From positions 2,092,436 to 2,156,435 of the forward strand of contig NZ_CP041352.1 in the NCBI RefSeq assembly GCF_009746125.1: a stretch of 64,000 bases of DNA, read 5' to 3'. A program made the position numbers and the translations under genes. Source of the stretch: Casimicrobium huifangae (GTDB lineage: Bacteria > Pseudomonadota > Gammaproteobacteria > Burkholderiales > Casimicrobiaceae). Under the pieces are notes generated by a model, which worked only from the letters and a program-made list of their open reading frames with translations, searched no databases and was not told the DNA's origin. This document shows, piece by piece, positions 1,019-5,372 of this stretch. Each line of letters begins with the position of its first letter. The stretch's first letter is position 1.

Positions 1019-2284
1019 TCAGGCTGCGACGGCCTGCTTTTCGCGTACCAGATCCAGCGCCGTCCATTCGGCGTCCAGCGCATCGACGAAAACGTCGAGC
1101 ATGGCGGACGTGTGGCACGGCCCCGGCGCGATGCGGATGCGCTCGGTGCCGCGCGGCACCGTGGGGTAATTGATCGGCTGCAGGTAGATACCGTGGCGGT
1201 CCTGCAGGCGGTCGGTCAGCGTTTTCACCTTCACCGGATCGCCCACGAATACCGGCACGATGTGCGATTTGCTCGGCATCACCGGCAGGCCGATGGCCGT
1301 CAGCCGCGCCTTCATCTCCGCCACGCGCTCGCGCTGCAGGCGGCGCTCTTCCTGCGAATTCATCAGGTGACTGACGCTGGCAATCGCGCCCGCCGCCAGC
1401 ACCGGAGCCAGTGAGGTGGAGAAGATGAACGAGGCGCCGAAGCTGCGGATGCAGTCCACCACCGCCGTATCGCCGGTGACGTAGCCGCCCTGCATGCCGA
1501 AGGCCTTGCCCAGCGTGCCCTGGATCACGTCGATCTGGTCGGCGACGCCCGTCTCCTGCGACACGCCGCCACCACGGTTGCCGTACATGCCCACCGCGTG
1601 CACCTCGTCAAGGTAAGTCATGGCGCCGTATTTCTTGGCGATGCGGGCAAATTCACCGATGGGGGCGATGTTGCCGCTCATCGAATAAACGCTCTCAAAC
1701 ACCACCAGCTTCGGGCGGTCCGGGCTGATGGCGGCCAGCTTGGCTTCAAGGTCGCGCGGGCTGTTGTGCTCGAAGATCACGCGGTCGCTGTTGGCGCGAC
1801 GGATGCCTTCGATCATCGAATTGTGGTTGTCGGCGTCAGACAGGATCACCGTGTCCGGCAGCAGCGAGCCCAGCACCGAGAGCGAGGCCAGATTGGCGCT
1901 GTAGCCCGAGGTGAAGGTCAGCGCGGCCGGCTTGTCGTGCAGCTTCGCCAGCAGGCGCTCCAGCTCCACATGCAGCGCATTGGTGCCGCCGATGTTGCGG
2001 GTGCCGCCGGCGCCGGTGGCGCCGTCGTCAATCGCCTTGTGCATGGCCTCACGTACCACCGGGTGGTGGCCCATGCCGAGGTAATCGTTGGAGCACCAGG
2101 TGATCACCTCGCGCACGCCGCTCGGGCTTGCCCACTGCACCCGCGGGAACTCGCCTGCGGGCCGCGTCAGCTCTGCGAAAATGCGGTAGCGCCCCTCGCG
2201 CTTGAGCGCATCAATGCGGGCGGCGAACAGGGCGGGATAGTCGGAAGAGCGGATCAAAACAGTGCTTTCAGAGTCCAGACGCAA
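1019..2284 (-). CDS. hemA: 5-aminolevulinate synthase (ALAS, C4 pathway)
   Basis: PLP enzyme condensing glycine and succinyl-CoA to 5-aminolevulinate, the first committed step of haem synthesis. Family-specific segments are present: EGRYRIF near the N-terminus, [17 protein letters not shown] (the Thr/Asn pair that separates ALAS from KBL and BioF), [16 protein letters not shown], the PLP-lysine motif GTLGKAFG (Lys260), FIFSTSL and the C-terminal [13 protein letters not shown]. The length, about 420 residues, is normal. The start at 2284 is TTG; a second TTG nine codons in is equally possible. It is transcribed divergently from folP. ALAS is typical of Alphaproteobacteria and eukaryotes, while most Betaproteobacteria use the glutamyl-tRNA route, so its presence here is unusual. 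KBL or BioF is less likely given the ALAS-type C-terminus. Confidence 0.93.
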
Positions 2285-2327
2285 TTTTACGGTTCACGCC
2301 CGCGAAAGCACAGCGGAAAATGGCGCT

Positions 2328-3230
2328 GTGCAACTGCCGGGGGCGGCGCCGGCCGGGGCGCAAGGGCTTACGGGCTGGCGGGCAGGGCGGTTTTTATTCG
2401 ATGTCGGGCCGTTCGCCCGGCCTCTGGTGATGGGCATTATCAACGTCACGCCCGACTCGTTTTCTGACGGCGGTCAACATATTAGGCTCCCGGCGGCCTT
2501 AAATCACGCTGAACGGCTGCTCGCGGATGGGGCCGACGTCCTGGACGTTGGCGGCGAATCCACCCGCCCCGGCGCCCCGCCAGTGCCCCTGGACGAAGAG
2601 CGGCGGCGGGTGCTGCCGGTGGTGGAGGCGCTGGCCGCCCGTGGTGCGTGCGTCTCGGTCGATACCCGGCACCCGGCGCTCATGCGTGAGGTGATCGCCG
2701 CCGGCGCCAGCATCATCAACGACGTGCAGGCACTCGCCGCGCCCGGCGCCATCGAGGCCTGCGCGGCGGCGGACGTGGGCGTGGTGCTGATGCACATGCA
2801 GGGCCAGCCCGGCACCATGCAGGCCGCGCCGCGCTACGAAGGCGCCGGCGGCGTGGTGGGCGAGGTCAGCCGCTACCTGATCGAACGGGCGGGCGCCTGC
2901 GAGGCCGGCGGCATCGCCCGCAACCGCATCGTGCTCGACCCCGGCTTCGGCTTCGGCAAAACCACCGAACACAACCTCGAACTCACCCGCCGCTTGGGCG
3001 AAATCGTCGCCCTCGGCTACCCCGTCCTCGCCGGCTGGTCACGCAAGCGCACGCTGGGCGAACTCACCGGTCGCCCCGTCGCCAGCGAACGCGTGCACGC
3101 CAGCATCGCCGCCGCACTCGCCTGCGTCGCGCACGGTGCGCGGATTGTGCGGGTGCACGATGTCGGGGCTACGGTGGATGCTTTGCGGGTTTGGGGGGAG
3201 ATGGTGGTGATCCCCGATAGTCGCGACTGA
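2328..3230 (+). CDS. folP: Dihydropteroate synthase
   Basis: Joins p-aminobenzoate to the pterin pyrophosphate in folate synthesis; target of sulfonamides. Visible motifs are MGIINVTPDSFSDGG (pterin/metal loop), DVGGESTRPGA, SVDTRHP, IINDVQAL, DPGFGFGKT and GWSRKRTLGE. The frame is open from GTG 2262, but that start would overlap the hemA leader; GTG 2328 gives about 300 residues, the usual size, and begins shortly before the FDVGPFARPLVMGIINVT strand. In many Betaproteobacteria folP directly precedes glmM; here glmM lies about 3.7 kb further on, separated by integron-type cassettes and accessory genes. The function is certain, the exact start is not. Confidence 0.93.
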   Translation: MQLPGAAPAGAQGLTGWRAGRFLFDVGPFARPLVMGIINVTPDSFSDGGQHIRLPAALNHAERLLADGADVLDVGGESTRPGAPPVPLDEERRRVLPVVEALAARGACVSVDTRHPALMREVIAAGASIINDVQALAAPGAIEACAAADVGVVLMHMQGQPGTMQAAPRYEGAGGVVGEVSRYLIERAGACEAGGIARNRIVLDPGFGFGKTTEHNLELTRRLGEIVALGYPVLAGWSRKRTLGELTGRPVASERVHASIAAALACVAHGARIVRVHDVGATVDALRVWGEMVVIPDSRD

Positions 3231-3472
3231 TGACGCATTGAGCTCGACGCACGTCGGGTTACGTTCGTGGCGCTCGCCGACTTCGCGGCGGTACGACGGC
3301 ATACTGATCGCAGCGTGCCGATAATCTTGCCCAAATCCGTGTGCGTGTTATCAAGGTTGTTTCGGCAGACCAATGAAAACATGCCTACGGATCAAAGTGT
3401 TACGGTCGTACGATGAACGAAAAGCGATTGTGGTGTTAACTGTTAACAGCGCCGCTATGTCCGATAAGACAC

Positions 3473-3479
3473 GTTGGGC
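3473..3479 (+). other. Left cassette boundary (R' core box GTTGGGC)
   Basis: The heptamer fits the GTTRRRY integron core consensus. With the following six bases it is the exact reverse complement of the sequence preceding the next attC (3887-3899), as expected if the downstream HNH gene was inserted here as a circle. The sequence to its left (3400-3472) has an L'-like stretch (CCGATAAGACAC) but I could not pair it with upstream L'' and R'' boxes. Whether this was an attC, an attI or a secondary site is therefore open. Confidence 0.7.
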
Positions 3480-3499
3480 AGCATCAGATGGAGGATCGC

Positions 3500-3886
3500 A
3501 TGGCTAATGGGCTAAACGGAACATCACTTGGCGGGTATGGCCGCGAGATCTACAAGCGGTATCACTATACCTGCGTCTACTGTGGCTTTGACGGTCGCGT
3601 ATTCGACAACTGGATGCAATTGAGCATTGATCATATTTTCCCCCGCAATCATCCTCGTGGTGCCGATCGAAAGAGCAAAGAAAATATGGTTGTCGCTTGC
3701 CGTGCATGTAACTCAATCACCAGCAGAATGGAGTTTCCGAAGAATGCAACACGCGAAGATATCCTCCGAGAAAAACGTGCAAAAGTAGCGGAGCGAAGAA
3801 AGGTGTTCTACGACCAGTGGAGCAGCGATGTTGCCCCAAGTTATCTAGAGCGCCCGTTACCTAAATTGCGTAAGCAGGCAACTTGA
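3500..3886 (+). CDS. Small HNH-family endonuclease carried on an integron cassette
   Basis: A 128-residue protein with the zinc-bound HNH nuclease layout: CVYC (Cys25, Cys28), SIDHIFPR (Asp44-His45), ENMVVACRACN (Asn62, Cys67, Cys70, Asn71). It consists of the nuclease core plus a basic C-terminal helix, with no other domain. An ATG at 3488 would add four residues, but the bases GGAGG at 3490-3494 form an ideal ribosome-binding site five bases before ATG 3500, so the shorter start is preferred. Base composition is near 50% GC, clearly below its neighbours. The stop codon lies directly before attC 3893-3961. It may act in DNA cleavage (restriction, homing or anti-phage); the target is not deducible. 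Confidence 0.88.
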   Translation: MANGLNGTSLGGYGREIYKRYHYTCVYCGFDGRVFDNWMQLSIDHIFPRNHPRGADRKSKENMVVACRACNSITSRMEFPKNATREDILREKRAKVAERRKVFYDQWSSDVAPSYLERPLPKLRKQAT

Positions 3887-3892
3887 GATGCT

Positions 3893-3961
3893 GCCCAACC
3901 CATCATTCGAGGGGGCCTCGCGCGAAAAGCCGCGCGAGGCCCCTCAATTCAAACGTTAGAT
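3893..3961 (+). other. attC recombination site, complete
   Basis: The boxes are in canonical order: R'' GCCCAAC (3893-3899), L'' TCATTCGAG (3903-3911), a long stem, L' CTCAATTCAAAC, R' GTTAGAT (3955-3961). L'' and L' pair (TTCGAG against CTCAA) leaving one extrahelical C, as in functional attC bottom strands. The central stem has 13-base arms, 3912-3924 and 3931-3943, perfectly complementary around a 6-base loop. The length of about 69 bp is within the normal range. It should be recognisable to an integron integrase supplied in trans. Confidence 0.9.
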
Positions 3962-3977
3962 TGCATAGGAAACTCCC

Positions 3978-4463
3978 ATGACAACTGAATCGCCAAAGTA
4001 CTCGGTATTCTCGATACGAGGGCTGCCCGCAGGAGTTTGGGGCGAGAGCTACGCCGTCGTAACGGCCTTCGAGTCCGCCCCAGATGAGTTGACCACTGAA
4101 TTTTTCATAATGACTAAACGGCCAAACGAGACGTTAAATTCTGGCGCCGTGAAAATCAGAGTCACTCCACTTCCTCCCGAACTCGGCAAAATAGATATGG
4201 AGTTCGCTTCGGAAGAGGGGCTACGTCAGACGGAACTAGCGCTTATGACCTTGCTAGAAGAGAGAGCAGCCGAACTGTCCAGGCCCGACGTCGCGTATTT
4301 ACAGTTTGAACTCAAACCCACAAACACGGGAGCCCTCCTCGGCTGCTGGATGCGAGGGCAGTTCAATTCACAGATCAAAGAAGTTCAGGCCAAGACTAAG
4401 TGCCGTCTGTTAGCGCGGTATCTCGACCTGTACTCTCAAGTCGGTATCATCAGACGAGTGTGA
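3978..4463 (+). CDS. Unknown cassette-encoded protein (161 residues)
   Basis: I do not recognise a family. The ATG lies 23 bases after the R' box at 3955 and is preceded by AGGA with 7-base spacing. The product is soluble-looking, without signal peptide or membrane segment. It appears alpha/beta with an acidic middle (EELRQ/LLEERAAEL region around residues 80-105) and a basic C-terminus (KTKCRLLARYL). A single Cys-Trp pair (CWMRG) is near residue 130. Its GC content is lower than the flanking chromosome. It ends exactly where the second attC begins, so it is the sole gene of the second cassette. Such orphan proteins are typical of chromosomal and environmental cassettes. Confidence 0.8.
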   Translation: MTTESPKYSVFSIRGLPAGVWGESYAVVTAFESAPDELTTEFFIMTKRPNETLNSGAVKIRVTPLPPELGKIDMEFASEEGLRQTELALMTLLEERAAELSRPDVAYLQFELKPTNTGALLGCWMRGQFNSQIKEVQAKTKCRLLARYLDLYSQVGIIRRV

Positions 4464-4468
4464 ATGCA

Positions 4469-4534
4469 ATCTGACTCTGCGGTCAACTGGACTTGCGCGA
4501 AAAGCTGCGTGGGCCGGTTAGCTCCACGTTGACG
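4469..4534 (+). other. Degenerate attC site closing the second cassette
   Basis: R'' is ATCTGAC (4469-4475; one change from ATCTAAC, the complement of the cassette's 5' GTTAGAT). Then follow L'' GCGGTCAAC, an imperfect stem around a GAAAA loop, L' GGTTAGCTCCAC and R' GTTGACG (4528-4534), which departs from GTTRRRY in its last two bases. Stem pairing carries mismatches and G-T pairs. The site is recognisable but eroded, so it may no longer recombine. Confidence 0.7.
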
Positions 4535-4571
4535 TCGCGCGATAGTCGCTGGCTGTGTGTAAGAGTAAGTT

Positions 4572-5372
4572 TTGACCGTGCGAATCCGGAAGGTTGCTGC
4601 AGTACTGCTGGCCAGCGTTTGTACCTTGGCATCGGCGAGTGAACCAGTGGTGGACAGACCCGCGTGGGGCAAGTACTTCTCCGACGCAGGCGTCACCGGC
4701 ACCATAGTCGTGGTTGACGAGCGCAAGACACCAGCAACCACGCTTGTGTTCGACCGCGAGCGCGCTGCACGTCGCTACTCGCCCGCATCCACCTACAAGA
4801 TTCCGCACACGCTCTTCGCGCTGGACGCGGGTGCGGTGGTGGACGAGTTTCAGGTGTTCAAGTGGGATGGTGTGAAGCGCACCTTCGCCGGCCACAATCA
4901 GGACCAGACCTTGCGCTCGGCGATGCGCTATTCGACGCTCTGGGTCTACGAGGGCTTCGCCCGGCAGATTGGGGAGCCGAAGGCGCGGGCCTACCTGCGC
5001 AGCATTGACTACGGCAACGCTGACCCGACGACCAGCCAGGGCGCGTACTGGGTGGATGGCAATCTGCGCATCTCGGCGCTGGAGCAGGTGGCGTTTCTGC
5101 GCAAGCTCTACCGCAATGCCCTGCCGTTCAAGATGGAGCATCAGCGGCTGGTGAAAGACCTGATGGTCAAGCAGGCGACGTCGGACTGGATCCTGCGCGC
5201 CAAGACCGGCTGGGAAGGGCGCTATGGCTGGTGGGTCGGCTGGGTGGAGTCCAACGAGGGCGCGGTGTTCTTCGCGCTGAACATCGACACCCCGCGGCGC
5301 ACGGAAGACTTGCCCAAGCGCGAGCAGATTGTGCGGGCGGTGCTCGAGTCGATGAACTTGCTTTCCGAGTGA
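4572..5372 (+). CDS. Class D (OXA-type) beta-lactamase, OXA-2-like
   Basis: A serine beta-lactamase of the periplasm. All class D landmarks are visible: S73-T-Y-K76 (nucleophile and carbamylated lysine), S121-T-L123 at the SxV position, Y147-G-N149, Trp160, and K211-T-G213. An N-terminal signal peptide ends near ASA at residues 21-23. Long stretches resemble what I remember of OXA-2, e.g. the FALDAGAV, FAGHNQDQ, DYGNADP, HQRLVKDLM and RAKTGWEGR regions. The start is TTG 4572; the N-terminus MTVRI aligns with OXA-2's MAIRI, favouring it over GTG 4578. The TTG is 38 bases after the degenerate attC, but no attC follows the stop, so it is not a complete cassette. Unlike the two cassette genes, its composition is GC-rich like the host. 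The substrate range cannot be read from sequence. Confidence 0.93.
   Translation: MTVRIRKVAAVLLASVCTLASASEPVVDRPAWGKYFSDAGVTGTIVVVDERKTPATTLVFDRERAARRYSPASTYKIPHTLFALDAGAVVDEFQVFKWDGVKRTFAGHNQDQTLRSAMRYSTLWVYEGFARQIGEPKARAYLRSIDYGNADPTTSQGAYWVDGNLRISALEQVAFLRKLYRNALPFKMEHQRLVKDLMVKQATSDWILRAKTGWEGRYGWWVGWVESNEGAVFFALNIDTPRRTEDLPKREQIVRAVLESMNLLSE

Follow-up and report, generated by a model that had tools for sequence, protein, structure and literature searches.

A putative integrase-less integron carrying two gene cassettes behind folP in Casimicrobium huifangae

The genome of Casimicrobium huifangae (hereafter G000) is a single contig of 4.47 Mb, of which a stretch of 64,000 nt (NZ_CP041352.1, positions 2,092,436-2,156,435; hereafter the window) was analysed. 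Behind folP, the window holds two gene cassettes that are preceded by a putative attI-type site and followed by a class D beta-lactamase gene. The features of this locus, numbered from the first base of the window, are as follows:

2262..3230, + strand: folP, encoding dihydropteroate synthase (TIGR01496, 301 bits), the left flank of the array
3412..3475, + strand: putative attI-type site without intI, subtype attI-B (crossover G^TT at 3473/3474; core 35-mer at 3441-3475, TGTTAACAGCGCCGCTATGTCCGATAAGACACGTT)
3474..3955, + strand: cassette 1 in its linear form, TT...G (3473-3485 complementary to 3887-3899 at 13/13 positions)
3488..3886, + strand: gene of cassette 1, encoding a 132-aa HNH endonuclease-domain protein (PF01844, 34.9 bits, over the cut-off)
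3893..3961, + strand: attC1, intact (R'' 3893-3899, R' 3955-3961; covariance model 44.1 bits; register score 16/16)
3956..4528, + strand: cassette 2 in its linear form (3955-3966 complementary to 4464-4475 at 11/12 positions)
3978..4463, + strand: gene of cassette 2, encoding a 161-aa protein
4469..4534, + strand: attC2, decayed (R'' ATCTGAC, R' GTTGACG; covariance model 10.9 bits; 80% identity to an attC of G049)
4572..5372, + strand: gene of a class D beta-lactamase of the OXA-2/OXA-46 family (NF012161, 284 bits, over the cut-off; 65.8% to OXA-732)

The gene of cassette 1 has a second ATG at 3500; its HNH protein shows weak similarity to PtuB (PADLOC) and had no match in any named genome. 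The cassette 2 protein, for which Pfam and NCBIfam searches gave no family, has distant homologues (at most 31% identity) in three relatives, and its predicted structure, with a mean pLDDT of 36, gave no useful information. A plasmid origin, or one from a visiting integrase, was also considered and rejected, with no plasmid or viral-contig match for either cassette protein. An Rfam scan returned zero matches, and a promoter scan gave chance-level signals only.

The array begins behind an R' box whose G at 3473 precedes the crossover (G3473^T3474). The first recombination site, attC1, combines the boxes R'' GCCCAAC and R' GTTAGAT with an L''/L' pairing that is complete in the canonical register (eight of eight), a single extrahelical C and a perfect 13-bp VTS stem (3912-3924/3931-3943), which bears out in every point the complete attC described in the initial annotation. 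To score both sites we used a covariance model of our own rather than that of IntegronFinder; this model, R1, was built from ten attCs of other loci with trimmed loops, the window sequence being left out entirely. It returned attC1 (E 1.1e-8) as the sole match across the 64-kb window, and attC2 as a weak second-best match near the locus (E 0.18 over 7 kb). A register-based detector likewise found attC1 once in the window and nothing in six 64-kb Markov controls. Of the two sites of the array, attC1 is thus clear and attC2 is below significance on model R1 alone; nevertheless, over 69 nt the latter has 80% identity with an attC from the intI-linked array of another species (G049), and the earlier reading of 4469-4534 as a degenerate attC stands. 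Its loop has 18 of 21 nucleotides in common with that of attC1. Paired R and L boxes, an extrahelical base and a palindromic VTS are therefore all found at the locus, and the 5' end of each cassette is complementary to its own R'' region, as expected of a circular form; on recomputation, these complementarities had the values first reported. Taken by itself, the weak attC2 would suit the idea of ordinary accessory genes among which the attC-like hairpins are terminators or arose as inverted repeats by chance, but the score of attC1, the complementary cassette ends and the empty controls refute this idea for attC1 and make it extremely improbable. Judged by sequence, the two sites belong to two different attC types, each with kin in other taxa, in keeping with the proposal that the cassettes were drawn from a wider pool; attC1 is 72% identical over 69 nt to the attC type of the resident integron described below.

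No intI adjoins the head of the array, and no intI fragment was found in the ~20 kb around the locus. A search of the whole genome revealed one true integron integrase, the only TIGR02249 match over the cut-off (446 bits; C1:694194-695132), in a complete integron 1.4 Mb away; the supposition that an integrase lies elsewhere in the genome was thus correct. This resident intI is intact, with an open frame of 364 aa, and the resident array comprises an acyltransferase, two tandem identical AbiV cassettes, a short protein and a VapBC pair. The resident integron and the window locus are alike in the skeleton of their attI and in an attC type that resembles attC1; they differ in that the former has intI and an attI of its own type (type A), whereas the latter has attI-B and lacks intI. 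The identical AbiV cassettes (L006, 16449-17207 and 17221-17979) suggest a recent duplication or recent integron activity. The intI promoter regions of the genus carry a LexA-like box, CTG-N10-CAG (~15150-15200 in L006, and at other intI loci), remnants of which are seen at some orphan attI sites (G009, G010c).

The left boundary of the array itself appears to be an attI-type site. At the intI loci of the genus, the conserved end of attI reads ...AAAAAGTTATAC-N-TAAAACACG^TT, and the bases preceding the first cassette of the window are ...TGTTAACAGCGCCGCTATGTCCGATAAGACACG^TT. The pattern GTTAN{14,20}TAANRCACGTTR has exactly four matches in the genome (the resident attI, 584705, the window site and 4209047) and none when reversed as a control; all four stand at the head of a cassette array, in the window with the crossover G^TT. 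A stricter attI-B pattern, applied to 64 family genomes, recovered only the window site, 4209046 and 2175060 in G000 and one place in the sister species G011; each of these sites heads cassettes, and none has an intI or an intI remnant next to it. With a profile derived from the other three attI-B sites, the window site scored 46.1 bits and the next-best window position 7.5. With a profile of type-A attI, the same site came no higher than fourth in the window; a two-base difference in internal spacing accounts for this rank and makes the profile a poor test of attI-B, which has the GTTA...TAARACACG^TT skeleton and a spacing similar to that of the genus attI but differs from type A outside this skeleton. 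An origin of attI-B as a copy of the resident attI was not supported, the upstream alignment being at noise level, and a pattern match in L093 was attributed to chance, as it lies inside an acpS-like coding sequence. An exact 10-bp direct repeat, CGATAGTCGC (3215-3224 and 4540-4549), flanks the segment formed by attI-B and the two cassettes; it is near chance level and was not counted as a target-site duplication, because that stretch contains a second exact pair of 10-mers. In another family (G039, L235), the inverted repeat TATACACCTGCACAGGTGTATA and TTTCACG^TT precede a cassette start and may represent a further attI-like head.

Together with the orphan site at 584,705, whose type is that of the resident attI (type A), and with two further attI-B sites, the chromosome of G000 would thus hold four intI-less attI platforms and one complete integron. 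The initial annotation had missed these other intI-less arrays, and the one in the window is not unique. The clearest comparison is offered by paaK, directly behind which attI-B stands both in G000 (2175060) and in G011, at orthologous places. The left flanks of the two species are ~85% identical up to about -166 and the right flanks are alignable again at +2328 (G000) and +2208 (G011), with no blastn match between the inserts that lie between them. This intI-less platform has therefore seen its contents change after the divergence of the two species. The G011 insert has a clear attC (34.1 bits) and that of G000 has weak ones (12.5 and 11.8 bits), and no intI was detected in G011, whose genome is 98% complete. 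The second locus lies behind a hydrolase gene (4209046 in G000), where the array starts with attI-B and is closed, at its border with a conserved converging gene, by an attC-like site (12.7 bits). In the relative G012 this place is empty, the flanking genes being ~27 bp apart, and the ~260 bp leading up to attI-B are also absent; the attI-B segment and the array were therefore either gained together or lost together. In contig C58 of G011 (L225), an attC of 45.1 bits is found ~1.3 kb behind the same hydrolase gene, and no attI-like site was recognised there. The orphan type-A attI of G000 and that of G015 (L169, L170) are located at opposite ends of one five-gene cluster.

Sites with the attI skeleton that lack intI and are followed by cassettes or an attC also occur in G006, G007, G009, G010 and G015, several of them having been found from the attC side through the expected cassette start and hence independently of the attI pattern. 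In G003, in G001 and at G006-C12, intI fragments are still present beside attI, which suggests a decay series from the complete integron, through an intI fragment, to attI and cassettes only. The orphan attI sites of G015 and G007 (L170, L171) share, ~150-400 bp on their upstream side, a repeat containing AGTCACTTTCTTTGCTTCGCCAAAGAAAGTAACC that may hint at dispersal.

This recurrence bears on how the cassettes came to stand behind folP. Insertion of cassettes at attG, a non-classical genomic site, has been reported (Loot et al. 2024, doi 10.1038/s41564-023-01548-y), and an integrase acting in trans might have put the cassettes at such a secondary site, the likeness to attI then reflecting the preference of the enzyme. 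Off-target insertion at attG sites is established, as cited by PMC12901181 and PMC12444791; a GNT/GTTRRRY-like motif is all that a secondary site requires (PMC10127599), and an integrase is present in the genome. The window array and attG insertions both have cassettes outside the intI-linked array, but the recipient in the window is a recurring attI-type sequence: attI-B is found at three loci of G000 and at the orthologous place in G011, in every case at the head of cassettes, and nowhere else in the 64 family genomes. Moreover, the identity between type-A orphans and intI-linked attI extends to as many as ~20 bases (TGCACTATTAAAAAGTTATA), too many for convergence. We thus regard insertion at an attG site as unlikely, and the same recurrence speaks against the earlier idea of a visiting integrase acting at an arbitrary place.

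The surroundings of the array are themselves variable. The comparison of close relatives that had been suggested for the folP-glmM interval was made, and its contents differ: it holds nothing, an aldolase, an aldehyde dehydrogenase, a DUF4279-like gene with a GNAT gene, or a DUF4440-GNAT pair (in unannotated relatives, gene names were read from the sequence and not from a family search). The window interval additionally contains the OXA-2-like, DUF4440, GNAT and DUF3224 genes. None of the relatives showed an empty folP site whose flanks could be aligned. Thus, of the initial proposal of two cassettes without an integrase inserted into a normally plain folP-glmM arrangement, the cassettes and the local absence of intI are retained and the plain arrangement as the norm is not. 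In G005 (L039, 1230-2360), the interval includes, besides a DUF4279-like gene, what may be a degenerate attC; folP-glmM may therefore have taken cassettes more than once.

The OXA gene of the window starts ~40 bp past the last crossover and may be an older third cassette whose attC was lost. A kin gene with 67% identity, in one environmental relative, is a true cassette between two attCs. G012 has folP, two other genes and then an OXA gene 85% identical to that of the window, with no attC. Given this folP-linked OXA and the lack of an attC after the window OXA, a bona fide third cassette is not provable. An intact attC1, a decayed attC2 and no attC past OXA would fit an entry of newer cassettes on the attI side. 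Relatives of the window OXA gene are found in cassette form (L109) as well as in ordinary chromosomal settings (L105, L106).

With an attI-type head, cassettes and no intI nearer than 1.4 Mb, the locus therefore appears to be a CALIN that has retained its own attI. In our view it is probably an integrase-less, or 'satellite', integron, in which attI-B is the dock for two cassettes on a platform left by an integron that lost intI, with service in trans as a further, inferred element. The platforms would be descendants of once-complete integrons, and a cassette circle would have recombined by attC x attI at G^TT, which would place the newest cassette next to attI; cassette 1, with its intact attC, would be young and cassette 2, with its decaying attC, older. 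Loading would have been the work of the former local integrase and probably now that of the resident IntI. A plainer history, conceivable though on balance doubtful, is that of a degraded integron: the locus would once have had an intI of its own and would by now be dead, with attI-B and the attCs as fossils that no longer recombine. This history accommodates the decay of attC2, the intI fragments beside attI in G003, G001 and G006-C12 and the difference in type between attI-B and the resident attI, but less readily the intact attC1, the intact intI that remains in the genome and the different cassettes at the intI-less paaK site of two close species, although this turnover may predate the loss of intI. 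Returning to the satellite integron, cassette turnover is documented at paaK, and the service by the resident IntI in trans is what we infer. Since three further intI-less docks and one complete integron are found on the same chromosome, one recombinase may serve, or may once have served, several docks.

CALINs, including those in genomes with intI, are well known (PMC9024848, PMC9229058, PMC12444791). As in the CALINs defined with IntegronFinder (PMC9024848), the window has attC cassettes and no nearby intI, and as in those of Shewanella and Xanthomonas (PMC9229058, PMC12444791), a complete integron is present elsewhere in the genome. Unlike an ordinary CALIN, the window array keeps its own attI-type site at its head, and four such attI-headed loci lie on one chromosome. 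In the literature searched, one published precedent was found for a CALIN with its own attI, the Shewanella prophage M16-3, which also carries a complete integron (PMC9892861). The two attI sites of M16-3 are of one type and both within the prophage, whereas G000 has several dispersed chromosomal loci, two attI subtypes and one locus that is orthologous between species and differs in its contents. No precedent emerged from the non-subscription literature searched, either for four dispersed intI-less attI-headed arrays in one chromosome or for an orphan attI that is orthologous in two species and loaded differently in each.

Integrase-less arrays are usually taken as dead relics or stray insertions. 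In this genus, attI-type sites stand at the head of many arrays distant from intI, and the cassettes differ at one site that is orthologous between species. This makes plausible, if only tentatively, a distributed integron in which one chromosomal IntI serves remote intI-less attI platforms in trans, the platforms persisting and turning over even after the loss of intI. If so, cassettes would be delivered to selected places on the chromosome, such as those behind folP, paaK and the hydrolase gene. The orphan attI also provides a search handle that attC-only tools do not use. Whether one recombinase and several docks can together make up a multi-site integron is a question that this genus would allow to be tested directly.
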